A stretch of DNA of 64,000 nt from Simplicispira psychrophila DSM 11588 (GTDB taxonomy: Bacteria; Pseudomonadota; Gammaproteobacteria; Burkholderiales; Burkholderiaceae_C): NCBI RefSeq assembly GCF_000688255.1, contig NZ_JHYS01000006.1, positions 1-64,000 on the forward strand, written 5' to 3'. Shown here in pieces: positions 1,201-58,245 of this stretch; the first letter of the stretch is position 1; every line of letters begins with the position of its first letter. The translations under genes and the position numbers were made by a program. The notes beneath the pieces were generated by a model. The model did not search any database. It worked only from the letters and a program-made list of their open reading frames with translations, and had not been told where the DNA came from.

Positions 1201-1256
1201 ATTAAAAAAAGAGCTATAAGCGCTTACTGAATAAGCACTTGAGGCACATTTGATGC
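1201..1256 (+). repeat. Dispersed palindromic repeat, copy 1
   Basis: Matches the repeat family of this window: GAGCTATAAGCGCTT, a short loop, ATAAGCACTTGAGGC, then CATTTGATG. It sits between the IS right end and dinB. The A-rich string before it (CTATTAAAAAAA) is also present in the copy at 6799, so it belongs to the repeat and not to the IS. Confidence 0.75.
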
Positions 1257-1289
1257 TGAATTGAGGCGCCACGCCCAAGACCGCGCACA

Positions 1290-2537
1290 ATGGCCACCGT
1301 GACCGATATCGCCCCTGAGGTAACCCTGCCGCGCCGCATTGCCCACTTGGACATGGACGCCTTTTTTGCTAGCGTCGAGCTGCTGCGCTACCCGCAGCTC
1401 AAAGGCTTGCCGGTGGTGATTGGCGGTGGGCGTCGCCAGGCCGACGACGCGCTGCTGCGCAGCCCCGATGGCCTGGGCTTGCGCGCGCCGCACTGTGTGC
1501 CGGTGGCGGCATTTCCGCTGCTGCGCGACTACGTCGGACGCGGTGTCATCACCACCGCCACCTACGAGGCGCGGCAGTTTGGCGTCGGCTCGGCCATGGG
1601 CCTGATGAAAGCGGCGCGGCTGTGCCCGCAGGCCATCGTGCTGCCGGTGGATTTTGATGAAGTGCGGCGGTTTTCCCGGCTGTTCAAAAGCACCATCACC
1701 GACATTGCCCCCGCCATGCAGGATCGGGGCGTGGACGAGGTCTACATCGACTTCACCGACGTGCCCGGCGGCCAGCGCGAGGGTGGGCGGGTGCTGGCGC
1801 GGTTGATCCAGAAAAGTATTTTTGATGCCACCGGCCTGACCTGTTCGATTGGCGTGGCACCGAACCGCCTGCTGGCCAAGATGGCCAGCGAATTCAACAA
1901 ACCCCATGGTATCTCCATCGTCCAGGCGGCTGACTTGCAAACGCTGATCTGGCCGCTGGGCGTGCGCAAGATCAACGGTATCGGCCCCAAGTCGGGCGAA
2001 CGGCTGGCGGCATTGGGCGTGCGTACCATTGGCGAGTTGGCGGCGCAGGAGCCGCAATGGCTGATGGCGCGGTTTGGCAAATCCACCGGTGCCTGGATGC
2101 ACCGCGTCGCCTGGGGCCAGGACGACAGTCCGGTGGTCACGCACAGCGAACCCGTCAGCATGAGCCGCGAAACCACCTTCGAGCGCGACCTGCACGCGGT
2201 GCGCGACCGCGCCGAGCTGGGGCGCATCTTCACCGCGCTGTGCCAGCGCGTGGCGCAGGATCTGCAGCACAAGGGCTACGTCGGCCGCACCATTGGTGTC
2301 AAGCTGCGTTTTGACGATTTCAAAACTGCCACGCGCGACCACACTGTGTCGTGGCCCACGCAGGACGCCGCCGCCATCCGCCGCGTCGCCGGTCAATGCC
2401 TCAAGCGCGTGCCGCTGCAGCAGCCGCTGCGCTTGCTGGGGGTGCGCGTGGGCGCGCTGGTGCGTGTCGTCGACTTGGCGCAGTCGCCTGTGCACGCACC
2501 CTCATCCGACCCCTATACGGCAGCGCTTTTTGATTGA
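1290..2537 (+). CDS. dinB: DNA polymerase IV (Y-family translesion polymerase)
   Basis: An error-prone polymerase that copies past damaged bases. The N-terminal HLDMDAFFASVE (residues 19-30) holds one catalytic aspartate pair. The second acidic site is GVDEVYIDFTD (about 147-157), where many relatives have SIDE. IGVAPNRLLAKMASEFNKP, the helix-hairpin-helix KINGIGPKSGERL and the little-finger region follow. At 415 residues it is longer than the roughly 350 of E. coli DinB; an insert after VVIGGGRR (about residues 48-80) accounts for much of the excess. The C-terminus TAALFD may be a weak beta-clamp motif. No SOS box was recognised upstream, where the IS end and a repeat copy lie. The start at 1290 is the first ATG in frame before the conserved block. 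Confidence 0.93.
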   Translation: MATVTDIAPEVTLPRRIAHLDMDAFFASVELLRYPQLKGLPVVIGGGRRQADDALLRSPDGLGLRAPHCVPVAAFPLLRDYVGRGVITTATYEARQFGVGSAMGLMKAARLCPQAIVLPVDFDEVRRFSRLFKSTITDIAPAMQDRGVDEVYIDFTDVPGGQREGGRVLARLIQKSIFDATGLTCSIGVAPNRLLAKMASEFNKPHGISIVQAADLQTLIWPLGVRKINGIGPKSGERLAALGVRTIGELAAQEPQWLMARFGKSTGAWMHRVAWGQDDSPVVTHSEPVSMSRETTFERDLHAVRDRAELGRIFTALCQRVAQDLQHKGYVGRTIGVKLRFDDFKTATRDHTVSWPTQDAAAIRRVAGQCLKRVPLQQPLRLLGVRVGALVRVVDLAQSPVHAPSSDPYTAALFD

Positions 2538-2658
2538 GCGGCCTATCACCCGGCGCAGGTGAGGGCATGTGAGAAACAGAAAATTCTTACTTGTTTCTGA
2601 ATGTAGGATGGGTGTTATCCCCCGTAGAGGGAGTTTTTGAGACAAAAGGATTTTTGAT

Positions 2659-4221
2659 ATGCGCGTCAATTTGCCCGTTACGGCCGAGGAGTACGACTAC
2701 CCGGCCGAGCACATGCTGGTGTCCACCACCGACCCGCAGGGCCGCATCACGCACTGCAATCCGGCATTCATGGATGCCAGCGGTTATTCGTATGACGAAC
2801 TTATGGGGCAGCCGCACAACCTGATTCGCCATCCCGACATGCCGCCTCAGGCGTACAAGGATTTGTGGGCCACTATTGGCCGTGGACTGCCCTGGACCGG
2901 TTTGGTAAAGAATCGGCGCAAGAACGGCGGTTTTTATTGGGTGCGCGCCAACGTCACGCCGATCATGGAAAACGGTAAACCGCGCAGCTACATGTCGGTG
3001 CGCACCAAGCCGGCGCGTGCCGAGACGCAGCAGGCCGAGGCACTTTATGCCCTGCTACGCAGCGACCATGCCGCCGGGCGCGTCACCTTGCGCCTGCACC
3101 AGGGCCGTGTGATTTACCCCGGCCTACGCGGCGCCCTGCAGCGCTTGGGGCAGGTCTCTGCCACCCAGAGCCTGGGCTTGATGCTGCTGGGCGTGACCGG
3201 GGCGGGCGCGCTGCCGCACTTGCTGGGCGTGCAGGGTACGCCGGCCTGGATGGCGTCGCTGGCGCTGCTGCTGGTCGGCAACGCCGGCGTGCTGGCATGG
3301 TTTCACCGGCGTATCGTGCGTGGCCTGCGCACAGCCGAGCAATTTGCCAGCGATATTGCCGCCTGCAACCTGAGCACGTCTTTGAACCACGCTCAGTTCA
3401 CCCCGTCGATGGCGCCCATGGTGCGCAACCTGCAGCAGATCCAGGTCAACTTGCGCGCCGTGGTGGGCGATGTCCGTTCTGAAATTGCCGGTTTCATGCG
3501 TGTCGCCGATGAAATCTCGCAGGGCGGCAATGATTTGTATGCCCGCACCCAGGCCCAGGCGAGCAGCCTGGAAGAAACGGCTGCGGCCATGGAAGAGCTG
3601 GCCAGCACCGTGCGCCAGACGGCGGCGACAGCCACGCAAGTGTCCGGGGACAGCGAACAAAGTGCCGCCGTGGCGCGCCGGGGTGGCGCAGCGGTGCAGC
3701 AAGTGGGCCAGGCCATGCACGACATCGAGCGCTCTTCGCGCCAGGTCGGCGACATTGTGGCGGTGATTGAAGGCATTGCCTTTCAAACCAATCTGCTGGC
3801 CCTGAACGCTGCCGTTGAAGCGGCGCGTGCCGGCGAGCAGGGACGAGGCTTTGCCGTGGTAGCGGGCGAAGTGCGCGCTTTGGCGCAGCGCAGTGCCAGC
3901 GCCGCACAACAGATCCGTACGCTGATCGGTACATCGGTCGATCAGGTGGCCCAGGGCTCGCAGCAAATGACCGAGGCCGCCCAGACCATTGCCGATGTGG
4001 TGGCGTCGGTCTCGCGCGTGAGCCAGCTGGTACGCCAGATCAGCTTGGCCACCGCCGAGCAGTCGATCGGCATTGAACAGGCCAACCAGTCTGTCACCCA
4101 CATTGAAACCATGACCGAGCAAAACACCGCTCTGGTCGAGCAGACGGCAGCGTCTGCTGAGGGGCTCAAGGGCAACTCCAGTGCGCTGTGGAACTCGGTG
4201 CAGGTGTTTCGCATGATGTGA
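2659..4221 (+). CDS. Aer-like PAS-domain methyl-accepting chemotaxis protein
   Basis: A membrane chemoreceptor that probably senses redox state or oxygen through a flavin bound in its PAS domain, as E. coli Aer does. The PAS domain (about 10-120) has the Aer signature RHPDMP followed by a conserved Trp and KNRRKNG, the flavin-contacting region in Aer. Two hydrophobic segments follow (about 171-190 and 195-214), then FHRRIVRGL and a HAMP-like stretch. The signalling tip is at about residues 372-400 ([20 protein letters not shown]). There is no periplasmic domain, so sensing is cytoplasmic. No CheR-binding pentapeptide ends the protein. A paralogue follows directly downstream, so the two are a tandem duplication. 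Confidence in the receptor class is high; flavin binding is inferred from the family. Confidence 0.93.
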
Positions 4222-4234
4222 CGTAAAACTAACA

Positions 4235-4308
4235 CCTTGGGATATGTCGTGATGTTTTTACTGAAACACAACGAAACTTTTCTACACTTCCAGACCAGTC
4301 CCAAGGAG
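4235..4308 (+). promoter_or_regulatory. Inverted repeat overlapping the Shine-Dalgarno of the second Aer-like gene
   Basis: CCTTGGGA at 4235-4242 is the exact reverse complement of TCCCAAGG at 4299-4306. The downstream arm overlaps the ribosome-binding site AAGGAG (4303-4308), seven bases before the ATG at 4315. If both arms are on one transcript, pairing would hide the ribosome-binding site. The 56-base loop is long, so this is a candidate only. Confidence 0.4.
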
Positions 4309-4314
4309 TTTTGC

Positions 4315-5899
4315 ATGCGAACCAATCTGCCCGTGACGGGCAATGAGTACGATTTTCCCGGCGAAGAATTGTTGATGTCCACTACCGACCATAAAGGGGT
4401 CATGGTGCATTGCAATGCAGCGTTTGCCCGTGTGAGCGGTTACACAATGGAAGAGCTGATGGGCCAGCCCCACAGCATGGTGCGCCACCCCGACATGCCG
4501 CCAGAAGCGTTCAAGGACTTGTGGTCCACCATTGGTCACGGCCGCAGCTGGATCGGTTTTGTCAAAAATCGGCGCAAAAACGGTGATTTTTATTGGGTGC
4601 GTGCCCATGTCACGCCCATTATGGAAAACGGCAAGCCCAGGGGCTATATGTCGGTACGCGCCAAACCTTCGCGCGACGAGGTGCGCGGAGCCGAGGCGCT
4701 GTACGAGCGCATTAAGCGCCAGCGTGAATCGGGCAAAGCGCGTTTTCATTTGCACGCTGGCCGTGTGCGCCACACCGGTGCACGCAACCAGGTTGAGCGC
4801 CTGCAGCGCGCCTCGTTCACGCAGCGCTTATTGGTCATGATGCTGCCGCTGTGGGCGGCGGCACTGCTACCCCAGGCCATGGGCTGGGGTGGAAGTGCTG
4901 GCCCTGCAAGCGCTGGCGGTGGTGTTGTTATCGTGGCTCATGCTGTGGCGCTTTCATCGGCGCATTACCCAGGGACTGGACGATGTCAATCGCTTAGCGA
5001 CCAGCATTGCTGGCTGCTCGGTAGCGCACAACGATGATTTTGAAAAACCTGTCTCCGGGCGCCACCCGCTGGCCATGCTGATGGAGCGCCTACAGCAAAT
5101 CCAAATCAATACGCGCGCTGTGGTCGGTGATGCACGCGCTGAGATTGGCAGTTTTGGCGTTATCTCCACTGAAATCGCCCATGGCGCGCAAGACCTGTCC
5201 GAGCGCACCGAATCCCAGGCCAGCAGTCTGCAGGAAACCGCCGCCTCAATGGAGGAACTGTCCAGTACGGTGCGCCAGTCGGTCGATACCGTGAAGCAGG
5301 TGCTGCAGCAGAGCGCGCACAGCGCCGAACTGGCGCGGCGTGGCGGTCAGGCGGTGGCCGATATCAGCGCCGTCATGCAGTCGATTGAGCAGTCTTCGCG
5401 CAAGATGGGGCAGATCATCGCCACCATCGAGGGCATTGCCTTTCAGACCAATATCCTGGCGCTCAACGCTGCCGTCGAAGCGGCACGCGCCGGCGAGCAG
5501 GGTCGGGGCTTTGCCGTGGTGGCGGGTGAAGTGCGTGCGCTGGCGCAGCGCAGTGCGGCGGCGGCCGGTGAGATCCGTGGCTTGATCGGTGAGTCCAGTG
5601 CGCATATTCAGCGCGGCGCCGGGCAAATGCAGGCGGCGGGCCAGACCATTGACGAGGTGGTGCAGTCGGTGGCGCAGGTGAATCAGCTGATGGACCACAT
5701 CAGCACGGCAACCCACGAGCAGTCGATTGGCATTGCGCAAGTCAATGAGGCCGTGGCCGATCTGGACCGGGTGACGCAGCAAAACGCCGCGCTGGTCGAG
5801 GAATCGGCCGCGTCGGCCATCTCAATGAGTGCCAACGCCGGGGTGCTGGGGCGCACGCTGGCGGTGTTTCGGCTCTCGCCCGGCGCTGCGGGCGTTTGA
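4315..5899 (+). pseudogene. Second Aer-like PAS chemoreceptor, frameshifted
   Basis: A paralogue of the preceding gene. The PAS part (from MRTNLPVTGNEYDF) and the KNRRKNGDFYWVRAHVTPI block are intact, and so is the signalling domain with [20 protein letters not shown]. The reading frame breaks between the two hydrophobic segments. A run of four G at 4886-4889 reads W-G-G-S in the first frame; with three G it would read W-V-E-V-L-A-L and continue to the end of the gene, giving about 527 residues that align with the upstream copy. So one extra G is enough to explain the break. It could be a true mutation, a phase-variable run (short for that) or a sequencing error. The first frame alone ends at 5037 and would yield a PAS protein without signalling domain. 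A start at 4237 is open but lacks PAS homology before 4315. Confidence 0.8.
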
Positions 5900-5911
5900 A
5901 CCAGAGAAAAT

Positions 5912-6763: not shown

Positions 6764-6798
6764 GGCGCAGAGGGGCAGAGTGGCAGAGTGGGGTAATT

Positions 6799-6867
6799 TG
6801 CTATTAAAAAAATAGCTATTAGCGCAATACCAGAATGCGCTAGAGGCTATTTAGATGCTTATTTTAG
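6799..6867 (+). repeat. Dispersed palindromic repeat, copy 2
   Basis: Long copy between queF and the Cache chemoreceptor gene. It has GCTATTAAAAAAATAGCTAT, then TAGCGC, a loop, GCGCTAGAGGC and TATTTAGATGC. It shows the fuller upstream A/T arm, in which TAGCTATT and the preceding GCTATTA can themselves pair. Confidence 0.8.
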
Positions 6868-6879
6868 GAGTTCTCCCAA

Positions 6880-9718: not shown

Positions 9719-9785
9719 GAGCGCGACACAGGTAGAAAAGCAGCCATACAGAGCAGGCACTGACAACAATATATTCAAAAAAGTG

Positions 9786-9866
9786 AGCTATAAGCGCTTG
9801 CCGCGATTGGTTTTCAAGTTGTTTTAAGCTTGAGAATCAATTAATAAGGGCGCTATAAGCTATTTA
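9786..9866. repeat. Two degenerate repeat copies head to head, forming a long imperfect palindrome
   Basis: AGCTATAAGCGC (9786-9797) faces GCGCTATAAGCT (9850-9861), and ATTGGTTTTCAAG (9806-9818) pairs with CTTGAGAATCAAT (9829-9841) at 11 of 13 positions. The arms are each about 35 bp with mismatches. Each outer arm resembles the left half of the dispersed repeat, so this seems to be two copies in inverted orientation. It lies between rne and yaaA, both on the minus strand. Confidence 0.55.
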
Positions 9867-9939
9867 TTTAGTATAGATGTAAGGATTGTTGCGCCACCGT
9901 TTCTGGCCGACGGTCTGCTGGCCGAAGTAGGGCATGGTA

Positions 9940-9978: not shown

Positions 9979-9996
9979 GAGGCTACTATCGCGTCT

Positions 9997-13257: not shown

Positions 13258-13903
13258 GATGCGTTTCCTTTAAATTGTGCAGGGTCGGCAGCGCGCAGCG
13301 CTCTGGCTGCAAGGCTGGGGACCGTGATTCCAAACAAACAACAGGCTCGCTAGGAGCCAACAATGCCTGGACTGACGCTTTGAAACGAAGGGAATTGCCG
13401 GGTATGCCAAGTGCCGCAGGGCTTTAACTCTGCGGGGGTGGCAAGGGCGCGTGGAGGGGGGCGAGCCTGGGAGAGTGCCTTCTTGCTACTGGATAAATAG
13501 CTGATGGCGCAGGCGTGGAGGGCGTCAGAGTCAAATGCATAGTCCATTGGAGCAGCGCAGATCGCTGCCACAAAGGCTGAACCATCATCATGAGCATCCA
13601 CATATTCGCTTTGGTCCGCCGGCAGTCGTGGCCCGGAGTGGGCGGACTGCCAGCTAGGGTATTCCGTATCAGTGTTTCAATGTGTCAGCTTGGCGTGCGG
13701 CATACAGGCCATGACAGGCAACCGGCCTGTTATCTGCGTGTACGACACCCGCTGGCATCGACCGGCCTGCGCTGGGCGAAGGGCTGTGTGGACTAAACTC
13801 CAGACAAATCAACCACTTACAAAACGCTGCGCAGGTGAAACATATTATAGAGGCCAAAGCGCCATATCCCCGGGCTGCCGTCCCGGCTGTCCCCTCGACT
13901 GCC
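13258..13903 (-). other. Long intergenic region: probable structured rne leader plus rluC promoter side
   Basis: No convincing gene was found here; the 83-codon minus frame at 13350-13601 has no recognisable domain. Hairpins visible on either strand are GGCTC-GCTAG-GAGCC (13344-13358), CCGCAG paired with CTGCGG (13414-13419 with 13430-13435) and ACAGGCC paired with GGCCTGT (13704-13710 with 13724-13730). E. coli rne has a leader of several hundred bases whose hairpins let RNase E cut its own mRNA; the position here suggests the same arrangement. TATTAT at 13843-13848 may be a -10 element for rluC. A very degenerate repeat copy may lie at about 13494-13538. Confidence 0.4.
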
Positions 13904-15955: not shown

Positions 15956-16996
15956 ATGACCCAGCCGAACCAGTTTCCCTCCAGTGGATCTGAACAAAAA
16001 CCGCCTGTAACGCCCGATTTGTGGGCGCAAGCAGCTTCTGTTTCAGGAGCAAAAAAACCTGCGGACACACCTGGCTGGGAGCGCAGTGTGCTGGAAAAAC
16101 TGGCTTTCTCCACCTTGACCGAACAGCGCAGCGCACGCCGCTGGCGCACCTTCACGCGCCTGGCGTGGCTGGTGTTTCTTATTTTCATCGTCTGGTGGGG
16201 CCTGTCGCGCGATATGGCCACCACCAGCAAAAGCGGTCCACACACCGCCGTGGTGGATATCAAGGGCGAAATCGCCTCGGGCGCCGAAGCCAGTGCCGAG
16301 TACGTGGTGGCGGCGCTGCGCAGTGCTTTTGAAGATGAAGGCTCCAAGGCGGTGGTGTTGCTGGTCAACTCGCCCGGCGGCAGCCCGGTGCAGGCCGGCA
16401 TCATCAACGATGAAATCATGCGCCTCAAGGTCAAGCACGGCAAACCGCTGTATGCCGTGGTCGAAGAAACCTGTGCCTCTGCTGCCTACTACATTGCCTC
16501 TGCCGCCGACGAGATCTATGTTGACAAAGCCAGCATCGTCGGCAGCATTGGCGTGCTCATGGATGGCTTTGGCTTCACCGGTACCATGGAAAAATTGGGT
16601 GTTGAGCGCCGTCTGCTCACGGCTGGCGAGAACAAGGGGTTTCTGGATCCCTTCAGCCCGCAAACGGAAAAGCAGCGCGCTTATGCCCAAGCCATGCTCG
16701 ACCAGATCCACCAGCAATTCATTGCCGTGGTCAAGGTCGGCCGCGGTGATCGCCTGAAAGAAACCCCTGAAATCTTCAGCGGCCTGTTCTGGACCGGTCA
16801 GCAGGCGATTGAGCTGGGGCTGGCAGACAAGCTGGGCAGCCTTGATTTTGTCGCGCGTGAAGTGGTGCACGCCGAGGAAATCATCGATTACACCCGCCGC
16901 GAAAATGTCGCCGAACGCTTGGCCAAGCGTTTTGGCGCCGCCATGGGCGGGGGCGCAGCGCAGGCTTTGCAATCGACAATGGCGCGTCTGCGCTGA
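15956..16996 (+). CDS. S49 family signal peptide peptidase (SppA-like)
   Basis: A membrane-bound serine protease that degrades cleaved signal peptides or membrane protein fragments. One N-terminal anchor (about 67-83, [15 protein letters not shown]) follows a cytosolic tail. The protease domain has VNSPGGSP, the nucleophilic serine in [18 protein letters not shown], and the general-base lysine in [12 protein letters not shown], which are the Ser/Lys dyad positions of the family. Length is 346 residues, the short single-domain form and not the double-length E. coli SppA. Its ATG is one base after the Rieske stop. It is followed by a hairpin and then hisI. Confidence 0.93.
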
Positions 16997-22478: not shown

Positions 22479-22508
22479 GAGCGCGTCCTGAGCGCAGTGC
22501 ACAATATT

Positions 22509-22567
22509 TTGCTATTTTTTACCTAGCTAAAAGCGCTTGCATTTAAAGGCTTTGAAGCCATTTTTAC
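22509..22567 (+). repeat. Dispersed palindromic repeat, copy 4
   Basis: Reads TAGCTAAAAGCGCTTG, loop, then AAGGCTTTGAAGCCATTTTTA, preceded by the A/T arm GCTATTTTTTACC. It lies in the leader of pdxA, ending 40 bp before the start codon. Confidence 0.7.
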
Positions 22568-22606: not shown

Positions 22607-23632
22607 ATGACTCTTTTAGCCATCACCCAGGGCGATTGCGCTGGCATCGGTCCCGAAATCATTGCCAAAGCGTTTCGCGATGCGCCCGACGATCTGCGCG
22701 GCTGCTTTGCGGTGGGCGATCTGGCCACGCTGCGCCGTGCGGCACAGTGCATCGAGCGTCCGGGTATGCCGGCCTTGCCGGTGGCGTTGATCACCGAGCC
22801 AGCGGCTGCGCTGTCGGTGCCGCTGCGCTGTTTGCCGGTGCTCCAGCTGGACGGCATCGCCGGTCCCCAGCCTTTTGGACAGATCAGTGCTGCTGCCGGC
22901 CAAGCGGCGGCGCAATGTGTGGTGTGGGCTGCGCAGGCGGCGCTGCGTGGCGCGATTGCCGGCCTGGTCACGGCGCCACTGCACAAAGAGGCGCTGCACG
23001 CGGCGGGCGTGGCTTACCCCGGTCACACCGAGTTATTGCAGGCCGAAGCGGCAGCGTGGCGTGGGGTGGTGCTGGCAGACATGCCGGTGCGCATGATGCT
23101 GGCCAGCGACGAGCTGCGCACCGTGCTGGTCAGCATCCATATGTCGATGCGTGCGGCGCTCGATGCCGTCACTTTCGACAACGTTTTGCAGACCTTGCAC
23201 ATCACCCACGCCGCCTTGCTGCGCAGCCTGGGGCACGCGCCGCGCATCGCCGTGGCGGGACTCAATCCGCACGCGGGCGAAGGCGGTCTGTTTGGGCGTG
23301 AAGAACTCGACGTGATTGCTCCGGCCGTGGCGCAGGCGCGCGCCCAGGGGCTGGACGTGACCGGGCCGTTGGCGCCGGATACGGTGTTCATGCGCGCCCG
23401 CCACACCGCTGGCAAACCTCGTGAATTTGACGTGGTCCTGGCTATGTACCACGACCAGGGATTGATCCCGGTGAAGTACCTGGGAGTCGACAAGGGCGTG
23501 AATGTCACCCTGGGCCTGCCGCTGGTGCGCACCAGCCCGGACCACGGCACAGCGTTTGATATTGCCGGTCAAGGTGTCGCCGATGCCTCCAGCTTGATCG
23601 AGGCTGTGCGCATGGCCAAAAAACTGGCATAA
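22607..23632 (+). CDS. pdxA: 4-hydroxythreonine-4-phosphate dehydrogenase
   Basis: Oxidises 4-phosphohydroxy-threonine in the DXP-dependent route to pyridoxal phosphate. Opening motif ITQGDCAGIGPEI. The metal-binding histidines are in YPGHTELL, VSIHMSMRAAL and AMYHDQGLIPVKYL, and the block GLNPHAGEGGLFG is intact. Length is 341 residues from the ATG at 22607; the frame is open 8 codons further up but without similarity. In many relatives pdxA lies beside surA and rsmA, which are absent here. It is convergent with mscL, with a repeat copy in the gap. Confidence 0.95.
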   Translation: MTLLAITQGDCAGIGPEIIAKAFRDAPDDLRGCFAVGDLATLRRAAQCIERPGMPALPVALITEPAAALSVPLRCLPVLQLDGIAGPQPFGQISAAAGQAAAQCVVWAAQAALRGAIAGLVTAPLHKEALHAAGVAYPGHTELLQAEAAAWRGVVLADMPVRMMLASDELRTVLVSIHMSMRAALDAVTFDNVLQTLHITHAALLRSLGHAPRIAVAGLNPHAGEGGLFGREELDVIAPAVAQARAQGLDVTGPLAPDTVFMRARHTAGKPREFDVVLAMYHDQGLIPVKYLGVDKGVNVTLGLPLVRTSPDHGTAFDIAGQGVADASSLIEAVRMAKKLA

Positions 23633-23633
23633 A

Positions 23634-23690
23634 GTGCCTCTAGCCCTTATGGGGTAAGCGCCTTAAGCTCTTGAATTTAGAGTGTTTTGG
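23634..23690 (-). repeat. Dispersed palindromic repeat, copy 5
   Basis: On the minus strand it reads AGCTTAAGGCGCTTACCCCA, then TAAGGGCTAGAGGCACTTTATG. It fills the gap between the convergent pdxA and mscL and starts within two bases of the pdxA stop codon. Confidence 0.75.
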
Positions 23691-28411: not shown

Positions 28412-28436
28412 AATTTAGGCCAATTTCGCTATTAGA
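28412..28436 (+). repeat. Fragment of the dispersed repeat (right arm only)
   Basis: AATTTAGGCCAATTTCGCTA resembles the right arm of the copy at 50589 (CAGGCCAATTTCACTATA). The palindromic core is missing. It lies just ahead of the tRNA-Thr gene, so it could overlap the tRNA promoter (TAGAAT at 28433-28438). Weak evidence. Confidence 0.35.
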
Positions 28437-33238: not shown

Positions 33239-33242
33239 AATC

Positions 33243-33285
33243 ATAGCTGTTAGCGCTTGCCGTATAAGGGCTAGAAGCCAAAATG
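33243..33285 (+). repeat. Dispersed palindromic repeat, copy 6, supplying a start codon
   Basis: ATAGCTGTTAGCGCTTGCC, GTATAAGGGC, then TAGAAGCCAAAATG. The last three bases are the ATG of the DUF815 gene (33283-33285). The copy begins four bases after the argJ stop, so it fills the whole gap. Confidence 0.85.
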
Positions 33286-34155
33286 AACCAAAAATTTGAA
33301 CATTTGATGCTGCGTGCCGAACAGCTGATTGTGCGCATCGAAGCCGTCCTGCCTCAGCCTCTGGGCGCACCCGACTGGACGGCAGCCATTGCTTGGCGCT
33401 ACCGCAAGCGCAGCAGCGGGCATGGTGCGCTGGAGCCGGTGCGCCATGTGGCGCCTCTGCAGCTGAGCGACCTGCAAGAAATCGACGGCCAGAAAGAAAA
33501 AATCCAGCGCAATACCGCACAATTTGTGCGCGGTGCGCTGGCCAACAATGTGCTACTGACAGGCGCGCGCGGCACTGGTAAATCATCGCTGATCAAGGCC
33601 TGCCTGAATGCCTATGCCGCACAAGGTCTGCGCCTGATCGAAGTCGATAAGGCTGATTTGATCGATCTGCCTGACATCATGGAGGTGGTGTCTGGCCGGC
33701 CCGAAAAATTCATCGTGTTTTGTGATGACCTGAGTTTTGACGAGGGCGAATCAGGCTACAAGGCCCTCAAGTCGATGCTGGATGGCTCGATTTCCGCTGC
33801 CACGCCGAACGTGCTGATCTACGCCACCAGCAACCGCCGCCACCTGCTGCCCGAGTACATGAAGGACAACCTGAGCTACACCCGTACGGAGGACGGCGAG
33901 GTGCACCCGGGCGAAGTCATCGAAGAAAAAATTTCGCTGTCCGAGCGCTTTGGCTTATGGGTCAGTTTTTACCCATTTAGCCAGGATGAATATCTGGCTA
34001 TCGTGGCGCAATGGCTGTCGTCTTTTGGCGTGGATGCGCAGACCATTGCCCAGGCGCGGCCGCAGGCGCTGATCTGGGCGCTGGAGCGCGGCTCGCGCAG
34101 TGGCCGTGTCGCCTACCAGTTTGCGCGCGACTTTTCTGGGCGCAGCGGTGTCTGA
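33283..34155 (+). CDS. DUF815-family AAA-type ATPase
   Basis: A predicted cytosolic ATPase of unknown role, 290 residues. Walker A is GARGTGKSS (94-102) and Walker B is FIVFCDDLSFD (about 146-156). A sensor-type asparagine and arginine follow in YATSNRRHLLPEYM. The C-terminus ends with a helical lid (ALERGSRSGRVAYQFARDF). The family is widely conserved but not assigned a process. Its start codon is the end of a repeat copy, and it overlaps the mutT-like gene by eight bases, which suggests translational coupling. Confidence 0.92.
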   Translation: MNQKFEHLMLRAEQLIVRIEAVLPQPLGAPDWTAAIAWRYRKRSSGHGALEPVRHVAPLQLSDLQEIDGQKEKIQRNTAQFVRGALANNVLLTGARGTGKSSLIKACLNAYAAQGLRLIEVDKADLIDLPDIMEVVSGRPEKFIVFCDDLSFDEGESGYKALKSMLDGSISAATPNVLIYATSNRRHLLPEYMKDNLSYTRTEDGEVHPGEVIEEKISLSERFGLWVSFYPFSQDEYLAIVAQWLSSFGVDAQTIAQARPQALIWALERGSRSGRVAYQFARDFSGRSGV

Positions 34156-34609
34156 CGCTGTGTCACAGTCCGATGCGTCGCTGGTGCGACCGCACACGGA
34201 GGTGGCCGTCGGCATCTTGCTGCGCGCCGATGGCGCCTTGCTGCTGACGACCCGGCCAGCGGGCAAGGCGTATGCCGGGTACTGGGAGTTTCCTGGCGGC
34301 AAGCTCGAAGCGGGTGAGAGCGTAGCGCAGGCATTGCGCCGCGAATTGATCGAAGAGTTGGGTATCACCATCGGCCCAGCCGAGGTCTGGAAAGTGACCG
34401 AGCACGATTACCCGCATGCACTGGTGCGTTTGCACTGGTGCAAGGTGTACGAGTGGACCGGTGAATTGCAGATGCGCGAGGGCCAGCGCATGGCCTGGCA
34501 GCCGTGGCCACCGACGGTGCGACCGATTTTGCCGGGCGCCTTGCCTGTGCTGCAGTGGCTGGCACAAGAACATGGCCAGGATTTTGATCCGTTAATACTA
34601 TTTATTTGA
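34148..34609 (+). CDS. mutT: MutT-type NUDIX hydrolase
   Basis: Probably removes 8-oxo-dGTP from the nucleotide pool, preventing A-to-C changes; other oxidised nucleotides are possible substrates. The Nudix box runs from GGKLEAGES to RRELIEELGI, with all catalytic glutamates present. The start is not certain. The GTG at 34148 gives 153 residues and overlaps the preceding gene by eight bases; the frame stays open to 34100, and a GTG at 34160 is another option. No strong ribosome-binding site distinguishes them. Confidence 0.88.
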   Translation: MSDAVSQSDASLVRPHTEVAVGILLRADGALLLTTRPAGKAYAGYWEFPGGKLEAGESVAQALRRELIEELGITIGPAEVWKVTEHDYPHALVRLHWCKVYEWTGELQMREGQRMAWQPWPPTVRPILPGALPVLQWLAQEHGQDFDPLILFI

Positions 34610-34652
34610 TAGCTTTATCCGCAGGTTCCATAACCGCTTGAGGCCTATTTAA
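34608..34652 (+). repeat. Dispersed palindromic repeat, copy 7 (diverged)
   Basis: GATAGCTTTATCCGCAGG, TTCCATAACCGC, then TTGAGGCCTATTTAAC. The core stem has decayed, but both flanks match. It lies between the convergent mutT and yacG. Confidence 0.6.
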
Positions 34653-43347: not shown

Positions 43348-43407
43348 AAAGGTGAGTGTTTCAAGAGCATAGGGTCGGTTTTGACCTTGACTGATTTTTG
43401 CTCTTGA

Positions 43408-43464
43408 TTGCTATATTTATAATAGCTATAAACGCTGGTACAGTAAGCGCTGCAAGCCAAAATG
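43408..43464 (+). repeat. Dispersed palindromic repeat, copy 8, supplying a start codon
   Basis: GATTGCTATATTTATA, ATAGCTATAAACGCTGG, loop, then GTAAGCGCTGCAAGCC and AAAATG. The ATG at 43462-43464 is the proB start. The right end is the same as in the copy before the DUF815 gene. Confidence 0.8.
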
Positions 43465-44613
43465 ACTCAAAAAAATAATTCTGATGTGCTGCGCAATGCG
43501 CGCCGTATCGTGGTGAAGGTGGGTTCCAGCCTTGTCACCAACGAGGGCCGTGGCCTGGATGAAGCGGCCATTGGCGAGTGGAGCCGGCAGTTGGCGGCGC
43601 TGGTGCGCGCGCAAGGGGCGCAGCACCGCGAAGTCATCATGGTGTCCAGCGGTGCGGTGGCAGAAGGCATGAAGCGCCTGGGTTGGAGCACGCGCCCGCG
43701 CCAGATCCACGAATTGCAAGCGGCCGCGGCTGTCGGGCAAATGGGCCTGGCGCAAATGTACGAAACCAAGTTGCGTGAGCAAGGCATGGGCAGTGCGCAG
43801 GTGCTGCTGACGCACGCCGATCTGGCGGATCGCGAGCGCTACCTGAATGCGCGCAGTACGCTGCTGACGCTGCTGAGCCTGGGTGTGGTGCCGGTCATCA
43901 ATGAAAACGACACCGTCGTCAATGATGAAATCAAATTTGGCGACAACGACACCCTGGGTGCGCTGGTGGCCAATTTGGTCGAGGCCGATGCGCTCATCAT
44001 CCTGACCGATCAAAAGGGCTTGTACACCGCTGATCCACGGCGTGACCCGACGGCGCAGTTGGTCCACGAGGCCCGTGCGGGCGACGTGGCCCTGGAAGCG
44101 ATGGCTGGCGGTGTCGGCTCCAGCATTGGCAGCGGTGGCATGATCACCAAGATCATCGCTGCCAAGCGCGCAGCCGGCTCGGGTGCTTCGACCGTGATTG
44201 CCTGGGGGCGCGAGCCGGATGTGCTGTTGCGTCTGGCGCAAGGTGAGAGCATTGGCACATTGTTAGTCGCACAAACGGCCAAGACACAGGCGCGCAAACA
44301 ATGGATGGTCGATCATCTGCAGTTGCGTGGCGCCGTGGTGGTGGATGCCGGTGCAGCCACCAAGCTGCGCGCTGAGGGCAAAAGCCTGCTGCCGATTGGC
44401 ATGACGGCGGTCGAGGGCGATTTCTCGCGCGGCGATGTGATTGCTGTGCGTGACCCGGCGGGCAGTGAAATCGCCCGTGGTCTGGCCAACTACGCCAGCG
44501 CCGAGGCGCGGCTGTTGTGCCGCAAACCCTCTGCCGAGTTTCAGAACCTGCTCGGTTACATGGCAGAGCCAGAAATGGTGCACCGCGACAACCTGGTGCT
44601 GATGGGCGGGTGA
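43462..44613 (+). CDS. proB: Glutamate 5-kinase
   Basis: First step of proline synthesis, phosphorylating glutamate; in E. coli it is inhibited by proline. The amino-acid kinase domain (1-265) has [24 protein letters not shown] and [16 protein letters not shown]-terminal PUA domain (about 290-370) contains [12 protein letters not shown]. Length is 383 residues. The start is the ATG at the right edge of a repeat copy. proA is not next to it; rppH is convergent downstream. Confidence 0.95.
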
Positions 44614-49729: not shown

Positions 49730-50578
49730 TTATTTCACTGTCGGCCATTGCCCGCCTGAGCAACGCGCGATGCCGGCGAGGTCTTTGCGGCTTTGTACCT
49801 GCACGAATCCGGCGGCGCGCAGCAGCGCTTGCACCGCCTCGGCCTGATCCCAGCCGTGCTCCAGCAGTAGCCAGCCACCGGGGTGCAGGTGCGCCGGCGC
49901 TTGGGCGACGATGTGGCGGATGTCGTCCAGCCCATCAGCGCCGCTGGCCAGCGCCTGCAGCGGCTCGTGGCGCAGCGCAGCCAAGTGCGGGTCGGCAGCG
50001 GCAATGTAGGGTGGATTGGAGACGATGGCGTCAAACCAGCCGGTGACACCGCGCAGCCAGTCGCCGTGCGCAAACTGCACCGCCAAGCCCAGCTGCGTAG
50101 CGTTGGCCTGCGCCACCGCCAACGCATCGTGGCTGGCATCGATGGCCCTGACCTGTGCATCCGGGCGCTGGTGTTGCAGGGCGAGGGCGATAGCGCCGCT
50201 GCCAGTGCCCAAGTCGAGCACGCGCGGCGTGTGTACCGGTGCCAGCAGCTCCAGCGCCCAATCGACCAAGGTTTCGGTGTCGGGGCGCGGGTCGAGCACG
50301 CGTGCGTCAATGTGCAGTGGCAGGCCGTAAAACTCTTTCGTGCCGCGCAGGTAGGCCACGGGTTCACCGGCAGCGCGGCGCTGGCACAGGGCGATAAAGC
50401 AGGCGTGCTCAGGCGGCGCCAGGGCGTCGTTGTCGTGCGCCAGCAGCCAGGCGCGGCCGGCGTCGGCGCGATTCAGCACGTGCAGCAGCAGCAATTGGGC
50501 GTCGATGCGCTCTAAACCCAGCGTCTGGGCTTGCGCCAAGGCATCGCGCAAAGTCAAAAGTGTAGGCAGTGCAGACAT
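49730..50578 (-). CDS. prmC: Peptide chain release factor N5-glutamine methyltransferase
   Basis: Methylates the glutamine of the GGQ motif of RF1 and RF2. The SAM-binding loop is VLDLGTGSGAIALAL (about 115-129) and the substrate motif is SNPPYIAA. An N-terminal helical domain contacts the release factor. Length is 282 residues. Its natural substrate RF1 is encoded just upstream (prfA), with only a repeat copy between them. Confidence 0.95.
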   Translation of the reverse strand: MSALPTLLTLRDALAQAQTLGLERIDAQLLLLHVLNRADAGRAWLLAHDNDALAPPEHACFIALCQRRAAGEPVAYLRGTKEFYGLPLHIDARVLDPRPDTETLVDWALELLAPVHTPRVLDLGTGSGAIALALQHQRPDAQVRAIDASHDALAVAQANATQLGLAVQFAHGDWLRGVTGWFDAIVSNPPYIAAADPHLAALRHEPLQALASGADGLDDIRHIVAQAPAHLHPGGWLLLEHGWDQAEAVQALLRAAGFVQVQSRKDLAGIARCSGGQWPTVK

Positions 50579-50588
50579 TTTGCTCTGT

Positions 50589-50640
50589 TTTTAATAGCTA
50601 CTGGCGCACGTTTTTAAAGGGTTACAGGCCAATTTCACTA
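50589..50640 (+). repeat. Dispersed palindromic repeat, copy 9
   Basis: TTTTTAATAGCTACTGGCGC, loop, then AAAGGGTTACAGGCC and AATTTCACTATA. It lies in the 73-bp gap between prfA and prmC, both on the minus strand. Confidence 0.7.
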
Positions 50641-50651
50641 TAAATTGCCAG

Positions 50652-51740: not shown

Positions 51741-51767
51741 GGAAATAGAAATTTTTAGCTACTGAAA

Positions 51768-51810
51768 TAGTAGCTATTAGCGCAAGCCAGGTGGCCGCTA
51801 GAGGGTTTTT
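51768..51810 (+). repeat. Dispersed palindromic repeat, copy 10, overlapping the hemA stop codon
   Basis: TAGTAGCTATTAGCGCAAGC, loop, then CGCTAGAGGGTTTTTTTGCC. The CTA of CGCTAGAG (51798-51800) is the hemA stop on the minus strand, so the last codons of hemA (KKTL) come from the repeat. Confidence 0.75.
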
Positions 51811-53096
51811 TTGCCCTGCGAACGCAGGAACAGGCGCGAAGCAGTGTGTGCGGTCTGGGCGCGTGCGGCGCCGTCGGCGTTGCGCAGCTCGGCCAGGGTG
51901 CCATGCAGCATTTTTTTGGCGACACCGCGCGACAGGGCTTCCAGCACCGATTCGATGTCTTCGCCTCGTGCAATGCGCCGGCGGGCGCGTGCCAGTTCGG
52001 TGGCGCGCCAGGCATCAGATTGGCCCTGCAATTGCTGGATCAACGGCACCACACCGTGTTGCGGGTCGCGCTGGTCCATCCAGTGCAGAAAGCTTTGCAC
52101 ACCGGCGTCGATGATGGCCTCGGCCTGTTCGACCGCGGCCTGGCGGCTGGCCTGCGCGGTTTGCACCACGCTGGCCAGGTCGTCCACGGTGTAGAGGTAA
52201 ACGTCTTCGAGCTGTTTGACTTCGGGCTCAATATCACGCGGCACGGCTAAATCGACCATGAACATCGGGCGGTGGCGGCGTTTTTTCAGCGCACGCTCCA
52301 CAGCGCCCAAGCCGACAATGGGCAGGCTGCTGGCGGTGCAGCTGACGACGATGTCGAATTCGTGCAGACGATCGGGCAGCTCGCTCAGGCGCAGCACTTC
52401 GCCGCCAAAGCGGGTGGCGAGCTTTTCGCCGCGCTCCAGCGTGCGGTTGGCGATGGCGATGGCTTTGGGCATACGCGCGGCAAAGTGCGTGGCGGTCAGC
52501 TCAATCATTTCGCCGGCGCCAACAAACAGCACGCGTGTTTGGCTTAAATCTTCAAATAACTGGCTGGCTAAACGCACCGCAGCGGCGGCCATGCTGATGC
52601 TGTGCGCGCCAATCTCGGTGGAGGTGCGGACTTCTTTGGCGACGGCAAAACTGCGCTGAAACAGCTGGTTCAGTGTCGAACCGAGTGCGCCGGCACTGTC
52701 GGCGGCGCGCACGGCGTCTTTCATTTGGCCGAGGATTTGTGGTTCGCCCAGCACCATCGAATCGAGTCCGCTGGCGACGCGGAAAGCGTGGCGCGCCACC
52801 GGGCCGTCTTCCAGGGTGTAGGAATGGGCGCGCAGCACGTCGGTGCTGACGCCGCCGCTTTGGGCGAGCCAGCCTAGGGTGTGATCGAGCGCGGCGTGGT
52901 CACCAGCGCAATAAATCTCGGTGCGGTTGCAGGTGGAGATGATGGCCGACTCGACGCGGTGGTGCGGGCTGCCCTGTCCCAGCGCTTGGCGCAAGCCTTG
53001 CAAGGTGGGTGGTATTTGATCGACCGCGAACGCAAAACGACCGCGCAGATCAAGCGGCGCGGTGGTGTGGTTAATGCCTAAAGCCCAGACTGCCAT
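51798..53096 (-). CDS. hemA: Glutamyl-tRNA reductase
   Basis: Reduces glutamyl-tRNA to glutamate-1-semialdehyde, the first committed step of tetrapyrrole synthesis. The catalytic cysteine is in [11 protein letters not shown] (about 49-59). The NADPH-binding domain has [20 protein letters not shown], and the C-terminal dimerisation helices follow. Length is 432 residues from the ATG at 53096 ([15 protein letters not shown]); the frame is open to 53144. The final residues lie in a repeat copy, and RSQGKKTL is not a conserved end. In E. coli, hemA, prfA and prmC form an operon in this order, as here. Confidence 0.95.
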
Positions 53097-53167
53097 TTTC
53101 GAATTATAAAATTTGTTGCAGCTGCGCGCCGCTGGTGCGGGCACAAACCTTGATCTGCGTTAGTTTT

Positions 53168-53446
53168 ATGACTCCTTTCGTTGCTTTTAACCACCTGCTC
53201 AATTTTGTCGGCCCAGCCGCTGTGGTGGCACTGGTGCTGTGCATGGGGACGCTGATTTTTTGGTCAAAACGACCGCTAGCGCTTTCCTGGTCTGCGCAAT
53301 TAGCTCTTAATTTTATAGTGGGCTGCGCAGTACTGCTGGCTGGCTTGTGGTGGGGCGGACGCGACGGCAAGATGCTCACCTACGCCGCGCTGGTGCTGGC
53401 GTGTGCCAGCTGCCAGTGGATCGTGCTGCGCGGCTGGCGCGGCTGA
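53168..53446 (+). CDS. Small membrane protein, unknown function
   Basis: A 92-residue protein with three hydrophobic segments: about 12-31 (VGPAAVVALVLCMGTLIFW), 46-62 (ALNFIVGCAVLLAGLWW) and 69-84. I do not recognise the family. Residues 34-51 or so (KRPLALSWSAQLALNFIV) are encoded by a reverse copy of the dispersed repeat, read through in frame. It is divergent from hemA and its start falls 72 bp from hemA. The small size and position between hemA and ftsY make it credible but not certain. Confidence 0.6.
   Translation: MTPFVAFNHLLNFVGPAAVVALVLCMGTLIFWSKRPLALSWSAQLALNFIVGCAVLLAGLWWGGRDGKMLTYAALVLACASCQWIVLRGWRG
53268..53322 (-). repeat. Dispersed palindromic repeat, copy 11, inside a coding sequence
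   Basis: On the minus strand: AGCTAATTGCGCAGACCAGG, then AAAGCGCTAGCGGTC and GTTTTGA, matching the consensus in both arms and in the trailing TTTTGA. It lies wholly inside the 92-codon gene, within the loop and the start of the second membrane helix. Confidence 0.7.
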
Positions 53447-53455
53447 CAGCAATCG

Positions 53456-54664: not shown

Positions 54665-54692
54665 TGCAGGGTTCTTAGAATCACTGCATTCT

Positions 54693-56138: not shown

Positions 56139-56160
56139 ACTACGCTCCAGGGATTGATCC

Positions 56161-57513
56161 ATGTTTAATTTTAAAAAGATAGCTGCTCGCGCTGTATTCA
56201 TCAGTGCTGGGGTGGTTTTTTATACCCAATCGGCTTGGGCCTTGCTGCCCATCGAACACTGGAGCGAGCCCAGCGGCGCGCAAGTCTGGCTGGTGCAAAG
56301 CCCAGGCATTCCGATGGTCGATGTGCAGATCGACTTTGACGCCGGCGACCGGCGCGATCCAGCAGAGCAAGCCGGCCTGGCCAGCGCCGTGGCCACCATG
56401 GCCAGCAAGGGCGTGCGCGCGGTCGGTGATGCACCGGCGCTGGACGAAAACCAGCTCGGCGAGGCTTGGGCTGATCTGGGTGCCAACCTGGGTATGGGCG
56501 CTGGAAACGATGCTTTCAGCTTGTCGCTGCGCTCGCTAACCGAGCCGGACTTGCTCGGTAAAGCGGTGCAACTGGCAGCGCGCCAACTGGCCGAGCCGTC
56601 CTGGCCCGAAGATATTTGGCAGCGCGAACGGTCGCGCTGGGATGCCGCCATCCGTGAGTCCAACACCCGCCCGGGCACCGTAGCCGGGGATGCCTTTGCT
56701 GCTGCCGTGTATGGCAGCCACCCCTATGGCCAGCGCGTGACCGAAGAGACGCTGGCGCACATCAGCGTGGCCGATATGCAGCAATTCCACGTGCACTATT
56801 TGCAGGCGTGCCGTGCGCGCGTGGCCATCGTCGGCGCGGTGGACCGCGCCCAGGCGCAGGCGCTGGTGACGCAGTTGCTGGCGCGTCTGCCTGCCACCAC
56901 GCCAGCGCAGTGCGCGCCGCTGCCAGCGGTGCCGGAGGTGGCGCCTTTGACGGCGGCAGTGGAAAAAGACATTCCGTTTGCTTCGGCGCAGGCCTATGTG
57001 CTGATTGGCCAGCCCGGCTTCCAGCGCAAAGACCCGGACTTTCTGGCGCTGCTGGTGGGCAACCACATTTTGGGCGGCGGCGGCTTTACTTCACGCCTGA
57101 CCAACGAGGTGCGCGAAAAGCGCGGCCTGAGCTACAGCGTCTACAGCCATTTTTCGCCCGGACTGAACGCCGGCGCTTTTCTGATTGGCCTGCAAACGCG
57201 CCCCGACCAGGCCGCCCAGGCGCTGCAAGTGGCGCGTGAAACGCTGATGCGCTATGTCGCCGACGGCCCTACCGAGACCGAGCTGCGCGCTGCCAAGGAC
57301 AACCTGATTGGCGGCTTTGCCCTGCGCATTGACAGCAACCGCAAACTGCTGGGCAACGTGGTCAACATCGCCACCAACGGTTTGCCGCTGGACTATCTGG
57401 AGCATTGGACCGAGCGCGTGCAGGCGCTGACGGCGGCGCAGGTGCGCGCTGCGATGCAGCGCAAGCTGCAGTCTGAGCGCATGGCCACCGTGGTGTTGGG
57501 AGCCCAGCCATGA
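56161..57513 (+). CDS. M16-family peptidase homologue lacking the zinc motif
   Basis: The second member of an M16 pair, 450 residues. The region that would hold HxxEH reads ASAVATMASKGVRAV, so the zinc site is absent. The C-terminal domain keeps GGGGFTSRLTNEVREKRGLS, the substrate-binding R/Y block of the family. The signal peptide (KKIAARAVFISAGVVF, about 5-20) resembles a copy of the dispersed repeat at DNA level. It begins 22 bp after the active subunit and overlaps rsmD by four bases. Confidence 0.9.
   Translation: MFNFKKIAARAVFISAGVVFYTQSAWALLPIEHWSEPSGAQVWLVQSPGIPMVDVQIDFDAGDRRDPAEQAGLASAVATMASKGVRAVGDAPALDENQLGEAWADLGANLGMGAGNDAFSLSLRSLTEPDLLGKAVQLAARQLAEPSWPEDIWQRERSRWDAAIRESNTRPGTVAGDAFAAAVYGSHPYGQRVTEETLAHISVADMQQFHVHYLQACRARVAIVGAVDRAQAQALVTQLLARLPATTPAQCAPLPAVPEVAPLTAAVEKDIPFASAQAYVLIGQPGFQRKDPDFLALLVGNHILGGGGFTSRLTNEVREKRGLSYSVYSHFSPGLNAGAFLIGLQTRPDQAAQALQVARETLMRYVADGPTETELRAAKDNLIGGFALRIDSNRKLLGNVVNIATNGLPLDYLEHWTERVQALTAAQVRAAMQRKLQSERMATVVLGAQP
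56179..56215 (+). repeat. Possible repeat copy 12 within the signal-peptide codons
   Basis: ATAGCTGCTCGCGCTG, loop, ATCAGTGCTGGGG aligns to the repeat consensus at about 23 of 35 positions, after an A/T stretch TTTAATTTTAAAAAG. It lies in the first 18 codons of the M16 partner gene. Chance similarity cannot be ruled out. Confidence 0.4.
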
Positions 57514-58178
57514 CGCGCCGTCTGACCCCCGCCCAAGCCGTAGCCGCACTGCGCACGCCGCCGGCTGCTGCGGCCCCGGCCCCGAAAGCCCCGACCGCCA
57601 AAACCACCCCCAAAGCGCCGACCGGCGCCGGCCAGATCCGCATCATTGGCGGCCAGTGGAAACGCACGCGCTTGTCGGTGGCGCAGCGCCCCGGTTTGCG
57701 CCCGACGCCGGACCGCGTGCGCGAGACCTTGTTCAACTGGCTCGGCCAAGACTTGGTCGGCTGGCGCTGTTTTGATGCCTTTGCCGGCACCGGGGCGCTG
57801 GGCCTAGAAGCGGCTTCGCGCGGCGCGGCGGCGGTGCAACTGGTCGAGAACGACGCCGCGTTGGTGGCGCAGCTGGGTGTGCTGTGCCAGCGCCTGCAAG
57901 CCACCACGGTGCAGCTGCGCCGGGGCGATGGTGTGGCGTTGCTGCGCCAGTGCGCCCCGGCCAGCCTGGATCTGGTGTTGCTCGACCCGCCGTTTGGCAG
58001 TGATTTGTTCGAGCCCGCCCTGCAAGCTGCAGCGCGCGCCATCGGGCCGCAAGGCTTTATCTATCTGGAGGCCGCCAGCACCTGGAGCGACGAAGCGCTG
58101 GCGCCGCTGGGGCTGGTACTGCAGCGCCACCTGCGTGCTGGGGCCGTACATGCGCATCTGCTGCGCTTGGCAGGCTGA
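57510..58178 (+). CDS. rsmD: 16S rRNA (guanine-966 N2)-methyltransferase
   Basis: Methylates G966 of 16S rRNA. The SAM domain begins IRIIGGQWKRTRLSV (about 46-60), then GLRPTPDRVRETLFNWL, FDAFAGTGALGLEA and the catalytic LLDPPFGSDLFE. Length is 222 residues, with an N-terminal tail of about 45 residues rich in Ala, Pro and Lys that E. coli RsmD lacks. It is coupled to the M16 gene by an ATGA overlap. coaD follows after a repeat copy; rsmD-coaD is a common pair. Confidence 0.94.
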   Translation: MTRRLTPAQAVAALRTPPAAAAPAPKAPTAKTTPKAPTGAGQIRIIGGQWKRTRLSVAQRPGLRPTPDRVRETLFNWLGQDLVGWRCFDAFAGTGALGLEAASRGAAAVQLVENDAALVAQLGVLCQRLQATTVQLRRGDGVALLRQCAPASLDLVLLDPPFGSDLFEPALQAAARAIGPQGFIYLEAASTWSDEALAPLGLVLQRHLRAGAVHAHLLRLAG

Positions 58179-58192
58179 GCCACTTCTTTTTT

Positions 58193-58245
58193 AATAGCTG
58201 TTAGCGCTTTCCCCATAAGCGCTTGAGGCACTTTTTGCTTAAATT
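58193..58245 (+). repeat. Dispersed palindromic repeat, copy 13
   Basis: AATAGCTGTTAGCGCTTTCC, CCATAAGCGCTTGAGGC, then ACTTTTTGCTTAAA. One of the best-preserved copies. It lies in the gap between rsmD and coaD. Confidence 0.85.

Follow-up and report, generated by a model that had tools for sequence, protein, structure and literature searches.

We analyzed a 64,000-nt stretch of the Simplicispira psychrophila DSM 11588 genome (contig NZ_JHYS01000006.1, positions 1 to 64,000 of the forward strand; hereafter the window), in which an imperfect palindrome of ~60 bp recurs between genes and inside them. The repeat is present in high copy number, its sites are shared across the genus, the columns of its motif are constrained, and two copies within genes bring no change of length. 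One nested clade lacks the repeat, and a clade-specific sub-family stands on old sites. The interpretation that we favor, with somewhat better than even confidence, is that the palindrome is a motif at the level of DNA that is kept at fixed sites by a process acting in trans, with copies serving as templates for the rewriting of others. Repeats that are short and palindromic are commonly interpreted as parasites driven by a transposase or as RNA hairpins; the several hundred copies described here point to a maintained, site-stable motif. The family appears to be undescribed, as no account of it was found in the literature searched by motif strings, titles and abstracts, a search outside which most subscription papers lay.

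Copy number, shared sites and column conservation

A 61-nt matrix was built from 11 window copies aligned ungapped over 61 columns, and the same 11 training rows were used for a covariance model, R1. With the matrix, 17 places in the window scored above 20 bits, six of them outside the training set, whereas no place did so in 100 dinucleotide-preserving shuffles of the window (largest score, 15.5) or in the reversed window (best score, 10.5). When each training copy was scored against a matrix made without that copy, it still reached 40.2 to 64.3 bits (n = 11). An initial annotation, made from the letters of the window, had listed 14 main copies, and all of them are supported; the three outside the training set scored 38.9, 26.4 and 21.6 bits. 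Its two weaker candidates fared less well: the one placed at 56179 was recovered by the matrix and is marginal with R1 (Table 1), and the one at 28412 was found with neither. Its list of the main copies was otherwise sound, with the copies at 13480–13539 and 15995–16055 overlooked.

The source genome comprises 3.60 Mb in 38 contigs. Genome-wide counts bore the family out: ATAGCTATTAGCGC, a 14-mer, was present 350 times (165 and 185 by strand) when up to two mismatches were allowed, compared with nine times (4 and 5) for its reversed control. R1 gave at least 150 matches on the whole genome at an expectation value (E) up to 1. In the window and 20 stretches of 20 kb chosen at round coordinates, R1 gave 85 rows at E up to 0.5, corresponding to 75 non-overlapping places, and 71 rows at E up to 0.01; extrapolation from this sample gives ~500–600 copies per genome. 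The layout runs from an A/T arm through ATAGCT, AGCGC... and ...GCGCTAGAGGCC to ATTTTGA, much as had been described, and columns 20–22 (AGC) and column 30 (G) do not vary in an alignment of 57 ungapped rows. Likeness extends beyond the AGCGCTT core, amounting to ~53 bits over the 61 columns, a value not corrected for sample size, and the copies behind it had been found with R1 itself. The G+C content of the 12 strongest window copies is 31–51%. The picture of a palindromic family of Comamonadaceae with hundreds of copies, each of the size of a repetitive extragenic palindromic (REP) sequence, stands.

When 300 genomes of the order were counted, those that do not belong to the window's family mostly gave values close to the control or lower; the two highest, 37 (control 32) and 31 (control 11), came from small genomes of family f42. 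In a draw of 250 genomes from the window's own family, 37 (our genome included) had at least 30 matches, and these were spread over many genera. Counts differed sharply within some genera (136 and 3 in g3; 179, 14 and 143 in g173; 164 and 7 in g250). The repeat is present in most members of the window's genus that were examined. No match to a single query copy was found among 72,556 plasmid records and 50,697 phage records.

For comparison within the genus, the surroundings of the window were taken from 22 congeners (labeled G below), with aligned pieces 66 to 81% identical. R1 found 106 non-overlapping copies in these stretches (E up to 0.05), 72 of which could be anchored on both sides and 34 of which could not. 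Seventy of the 72 lie on a site that is occupied in the window, all 70 in the same orientation. The remaining two lie on sites that are empty here, with gap differences of 59 and 90 nt and blurred boundaries. The 70 shared copies are spread over 11 sites, and 62 are on the five that begin at 33226, 34592, 43405, 50577 and 51753. Judged by eye from the flanking DNA, which is independent of R1, these five sites hold a copy in 16/19, 18/18, 12/12, 9/9 and 9/9 congeners; R1 detected 16, 17, 12, 9 and 8 at the same sites. The absences at 22506 (G547) and 33226 (three congeners) are not of unit length. In addition, ~175 nt of G+C-rich palindromic DNA precedes the repeat at the site at 33238 of our genome in G433, G552 and G560, and a similar-looking G+C-rich sequence lies by the 50577 site in G433; this is perhaps another dispersed repeat.

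Column conservation was examined at the five sites with 57 ungapped congener rows and 5 rows of our own genome, after 5 rows of other length were dropped; the column classes were defined from own-genome copies only. Identity in the 22 columns of at least 1 bit was 0.83 within a site and 0.80 between sites, whereas it was 0.58 and 0.49 in the 13 columns of 0.5 to 1 bit and 0.44 and 0.36 in the 13 columns below 0.5 bit. The variable columns are therefore near saturation and the motif columns are kept. Ascertainment by the model had a limited influence, because flank anchoring alone recovered nearly the same copies. The "varied degrees of decay" noted in the initial annotation do not describe the sites compared, as the low-information columns are free and the motif columns are retained. 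A neutral relic of an ancient transposition burst would also leave shared sites, but neutral old insertions would erode all column classes alike, and the unequal classes, with saturation approached in the variable columns and not in the motif columns, speak against such a relic; the spread of a clade-specific sub-family does so too, and we regard this explanation as highly improbable. As with DNA uptake sequences (DUS) and uptake signal sequences (USS), the motif is dispersed, sits at orthologous sites and changes in place.

Absence from a nested clade and probable replacement in place

Three congeners, G542, G544 and G546, had no R1 match in 64.2 kb, compared with 11.8 expected at the rate of the other congeners, and the 33226 copy is absent in all three. 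In a protein tree of one gene, the three are nested in the genus beside G548 and G541; the branch of these five members has a support of 100/99, and deeper branches have less. G548 carries 5 matches in 40 kb, with one shared site degraded, and G541 carries 9 in 40 kb. This repeat-free clade offers a natural experiment for finding a factor that acts in trans.

Sub-family B, defined by GCGCACGTATYTAAAGGGCTAGAGG with up to three mismatches, is found 11 times in 464 kb of our genome. Among the congeners it occurs once in G547 and four times in G558, and it was not found in the 19 others (~595 kb); reversed GCGCACGTATYTAAAGGGCTAGAGG gave no match. G547 and G558 group with our genome in the protein tree. 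Three of the four G558 copies (34592, 43405 and selO) sit where other congeners have other motif sequence, and in selO the difference is a block of changes to the sub-family B loop with the length unchanged. The fourth stands on a site that is empty here and, by eye, in most of the others. The best pairs of copies are identical at up to 52/61 positions and have unrelated flanks; the look for a target-site duplication was a visual comparison of the DNA beside the closest pairs. The simplest reading of these sequences would be that sequence was copied from one copy onto another, together with rare new sites.

Copies inside genes are consistent with replacement of this kind. The selO copy consists of 61 nt of coding sequence, and the length there is equal in 20/20 congeners aligned. 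R1 matched at this site in 18 of 21 covering loci; there was no match in G552, G542 and G546, and the latter two have unrelated codons of equal length. A solved SelO homolog aligned at the copy differs by two residues. For hscA, the 17 covering congeners share one protein length, one residue shorter than in six outgroups, and R1 matched at 11 of these 17 loci (none in G542, G544, G546, G548, G555 and G516). At the 53264 site, G516, G545 and G556 have non-motif sequence, and G516 has an open frame for a similar protein. In-frame insertion as in Rickettsia was considered and is contradicted for selO and hscA by the unchanged length. These in-gene copies suggest that coding sequence can be reshaped by a repeat with no gain in length.

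In the mechanism that we propose, a trans-acting process would hold a recognition motif at several hundred fixed chromosomal sites, templated rewriting, through either ectopic conversion or template switching, would renew the copies where they stand, and new sites would be colonized rarely. We infer that recognition would be of DNA and that replacement would be conversion; the absence of the repeat from one clade may reflect the loss of one trans factor, and the sampled sites would represent the rest. A more specific version, in which the repeat is a self-rewriting, drive-maintained motif of Comamonadaceae, uptake-sequence-like or with another driver, whose new variants overwrite old copies even in conserved genes without insertion, is a tentative proposal that we hold with considerably less confidence.

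Several points weigh against the trans-maintained motif. A new-site copy exists in G558, and the G550 gap differs by 59 nt, approximately one unit length, from the site that is empty here. Compared with distant solved structures, the segment around the copy is longer in GluQRS, and CobU has additional residues at its copy, so insertion is possible in these two further genes. Third-position conservation is weakly raised in selO (element codons 0.672, whole-gene mean 0.580; rank 61 of 473) and is not raised in hscA (0.603 and 0.583; rank 235 of 612). Most of the comparative weight is on five intergenic sites and two genes, with congener rows that are related rather than independent. Several congeners are incomplete drafts (G558 is 61% and G547 is 64% complete), and the stretches compared for G542, G544 and G546 share synteny with the window only in part. 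A trans factor was not found, with competence genes outside the search. Covariation is weak, so the hairpin may be incidental. In addition, copies adjoin the RAYT (REP-associated tyrosine transposase) gene more often than they occur elsewhere in its neighborhood, a real hint of a connection that comes without a control for gap bias: of eight places found in 20 RAYT neighborhoods from repeat-rich genomes, seven are no more than ~105 bp away from the gene, and 10 of the 22 places at E up to 5 adjoin a RAYT gene.

Genomic placement, pairing and transposase genes

Genes were called with a home-made caller, by which 84% of the sequence is coding. Of the 75 places, 15 are within called genes; the others occupy tandem (38), convergent (15) and divergent (7) gaps. 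The copies in tandem gaps show no preference for the gene strand (20 in the same and 18 in the opposite orientation), in line with the earlier description of copies that mostly fill short gaps in either orientation. An apparent replication-strand bias vanished when R1 positions and dnaA were used in three genomes (31 against 44, 19 against 19 and 13 against 13 among the matches listed).

One alternative is that the repeat is an RNA hairpin at gene ends, a terminator or stabilizer of mRNA kept by selection, which would work in both directions because it is palindromic. The placement agrees with this to some extent: among gaps of at least 40 bp, a copy is present in 14/35 convergent and 38/164 tandem gaps against 7/49 divergent gaps (convergent versus divergent, p = 0.010), and the copies in tandem gaps are nearer the stop in 25 cases and nearer the start in 13. 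The columns permit an A/T hairpin (6–22) together with a G+C-containing hairpin (25–49), or a longer hairpin with a mismatch. When eight strands were folded, only the 6795 copy was far below its shuffles (z = −4.0), the others ranging from −1.9 to 0.4. Covariation exceeded the shuffles on a structure-fitted congener alignment and was weaker on our own copies; on the ungapped rows, by comparison, covariation of the stem pairs did not stand out from that of other column pairs. In an arm-swap test between species at the same site, arms from a single species paired only slightly better than swapped ones, which is marginal support (0.781, with 0.766 as the permuted mean, p = 0.03; 0.793 against 0.778, p = 0.05). 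The outer stem (columns 17–23 with 51–57) was given no support by the swap test and had one marginal pair on the ungapped rows. Strong compensatory evolution, seen by eye and on the structure-fitted alignment, was set aside, as the ungapped rows and the swap test gave little. A search of Rfam returned only the tRNA at the gathering score, and none of five matches at E up to 5 fell on a copy. Conservation is of the sequence more than of its pairing. Conserved copies within selO and hscA and the lack of an orientation preference also speak against a role in RNA, and the earlier idea of a hairpin kept for RNA function is weakened to an explanation that we consider unlikely.

A second alternative is that the repeat may be a DNA uptake-type sequence kept by molecular drive via natural transformation. 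Its dynamics resemble those of USS in the shared sites and the change in place; 15 of the 75 places are inside called genes in spite of the 84% coding share, and the repeat is missing from whole lineages and differs greatly in count within g3, g173 and g250. In the available portion of PMC7811141, USS are said to evolve by point mutation and to be under-represented in coding sequence, and 1,465 to 2,206 copies are quoted; the part of PMC2397512 available to us assigns recombination a key role for uptake sequences. The repeat, however, spans 61 bp and carries ~53 bits, compared with uptake cores of 9–10 bp, and its shared loop sequence shows copying between sites. An uptake sequence in the strict sense would be about as doubtful as the RNA hairpin.

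A third alternative is that the repeat is a REP/REPIN-like element mobilized by the RAYT gene of the genome. The repeat is palindromic and REP-sized, and the genome contains one full-length RAYT, besides four partial Y1 matches located at the ends of contigs or close to them. This RAYT scores 75.7 bits with NF047646 (below the cut-off of 80) and 39.9 bits with PF01797 (above the cut-off), and its closest relatives among named genomes are in Giesbergeria and Acidovorax, followed by Extensimonas and others. It is flanked by a repeat copy at its 3′ end and a weak copy (10.4 bits) upstream, but the two are in the same orientation, not inverted. The general flank of the RAYT family is another motif, GGGGTCAGA, found within 200 bp of the RAYT in 62/79 loci and farther out in the flanks in 2. 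In our genome GGGGTCAGAGTCG, one mismatch allowed, is seen seven times, equal to the count of its reversed control, so it is not dispersed. By eye, the alignment of 57 ungapped rows that shows the invariant AGC and G columns contains no conserved columns of a GT(A/G)G head beside the palindrome. The RAYT is intact in the repeat-free G542, G544 and G546, it is only 55–56% identical in the repeat-bearing G433, G560 and G561, and a RAYT-like protein is found in 237/250 genomes of the family, compared with the 37 that have at least 30 repeat matches. The RAYT as mobilizer, suggested by the flanking copies, was set aside because of the GGGGTCAGA flank and the intact RAYT of the repeat-free clade, with the nearness of copies to the RAYT in repeat-rich genomes standing against this, and we regard mobilization by RAYT as quite improbable. 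The earlier proposal of a miniature inverted-repeat transposable element or REP moved by something else holds for some copying (sub-family B and one new site), but is not supported as the main process: the 70/72 anchored copies on shared sites (11 sites) and the two in-gene copies that add no length disagree with it, and the candidate mobilizer to which it had pointed, the sole full-length RAYT, does not track the repeat in its presence.

Separately, a conserved motif around GGGGTCAGATTCCAATTA that is not dispersed in our genome flanks the RAYT family (L036:4400–5300 and 79 RAYT loci); the RAYT is a single-copy gene that has ends of its own. The same IS200/IS605-like transposase fragment ends three contigs with a shared right end (L037:1–330, L038:1–330 and L040:7100–7430) and is likely a multi-copy insertion sequence collapsed in the assembly. 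IS200/IS605 fragments at contig ends were also considered, and no likeness to the repeat was seen by eye.

The copies in the window are collected in Table 1. The 33226 copy contains the stop of the upstream gene and the ATG of the downstream gene; here and at 43405–43465 the repeat tail CCAAAATGA provides the downstream ATG, as it often does in congeners. The weak copy at 56162–56222 occupies the first codons of an open reading frame (ORF) that seems to begin with a signal peptide. Elsewhere in the window, at 2659–5817, stretches ~1660 bp apart are 72–76% identical, probably a tandem gene duplication.

Table 1 Copies of the palindromic repeat in the window. Training rows are those of the 61-nt matrix and R1; "left out" is the matrix score without that copy.
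Feature	Position	Strand	Training row	Scores	Remarks
Repeat copy	1193–1253	+	yes	R1 64.8 bits; left out 64.3 bits	
Repeat copy	6795–6855	+	yes	R1 64.6 bits; left out 60.0 bits	
Degenerate copy, one of an inverted pair	9767–9827	+		matrix 26.4 bits; R1 E 0.037	R1 match at 9768–9827
Degenerate copy, partner of the inverted pair	9820–9880	−		matrix 21.6 bits	no R1 match at E up to 5
Copy missed in the initial annotation	13480–13539	+		R1 24.8 bits	same site occupied in G547, sole congener anchored
Copy missed in the initial annotation	15995–16055	−		R1 41.6 bits	present in G547, sole congener anchored
Copy with a longer loop	20393–20453	−		R1 25.6 bits; matrix 38.9 bits	
Repeat copy	22506–22566	+	yes	R1 59 bits	missing together with its flanks in G547; G551 has it
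Copy in a convergent gap	23628–23688	−	yes	R1 56.5 bits	in both congeners anchored
Copy filling the gap of two co-directional genes	33226–33286	+	yes	R1 63.1 bits	16/19 congeners
Repeat copy	34592–34652	+	yes	R1 59.5 bits	18/18 congeners by eye (one much degraded), 17/18 by R1
Copy whose tail holds the ATG of the next gene	43405–43465	+	yes	R1 57.3 bits	12/12 congeners
Copy of sub-family B type (up to 3 mismatches)	50577–50637	+	yes	R1 55.8 bits	9/9 congeners hold a copy
Repeat copy	51753–51813	+	yes	R1 60.1 bits	9/9 congeners by eye, 8/9 by R1
Copy within a plus-strand open frame, membrane-protein-like	53264–53324	−	yes	R1 55.5 bits	open frame
Weak copy in the start of an ORF (56161 onward)	56162–56222	+		matrix 29.8 bits; R1 12.7 bits, E 0.5	
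Repeat copy	58177–58237	+	yes	R1 58.3 bits	

Comparison with known systems

The repeat shares features with several known families. Like REP and REPIN sequences that accompany RAYT, it consists of short palindromes in hundreds of copies that are mostly intergenic; unlike them, as far as they are described in the accessible part of PMC2817692, it lacks a conserved GT(A/G)G head, it is not tracked by RAYT, and its sites are shared genus-wide. Rickettsia palindromic elements (RPE) are likewise palindromic repeats that occur inside open reading frames, but in the portion of PMC10969869 at hand they are ~150 bp long and inserted in frame, whereas our repeat adds no length in the two genes tested. 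BRE is also a repeat of beta-proteobacteria including Comamonadaceae. According to the part of PMC3110155 available, however, it is ~90 bp long, has 69% G+C in Bordetella, reaches at most 29 copies per genome and is partly tandem; our repeat, with 61 nt, 31–51% G+C and hundreds of copies, is set apart from BRE by this description and not by alignment.

The nearest parallel, to the extent that the sources seen in part allow the comparison, is the process, drive or selection, by which Neisseriaceae and Pasteurellaceae retain their DNA uptake sequences. The repeat resembles DUS and USS, as described in the available text of PMC7811141, in that many dispersed copies are sparse in coding DNA and change in place. 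It differs from them in its length of ~60 bp with two palindromic parts, where DUS and USS have 9- to 10-bp cores with flanking A/T-rich parts, and in that its copies share loops by descent.

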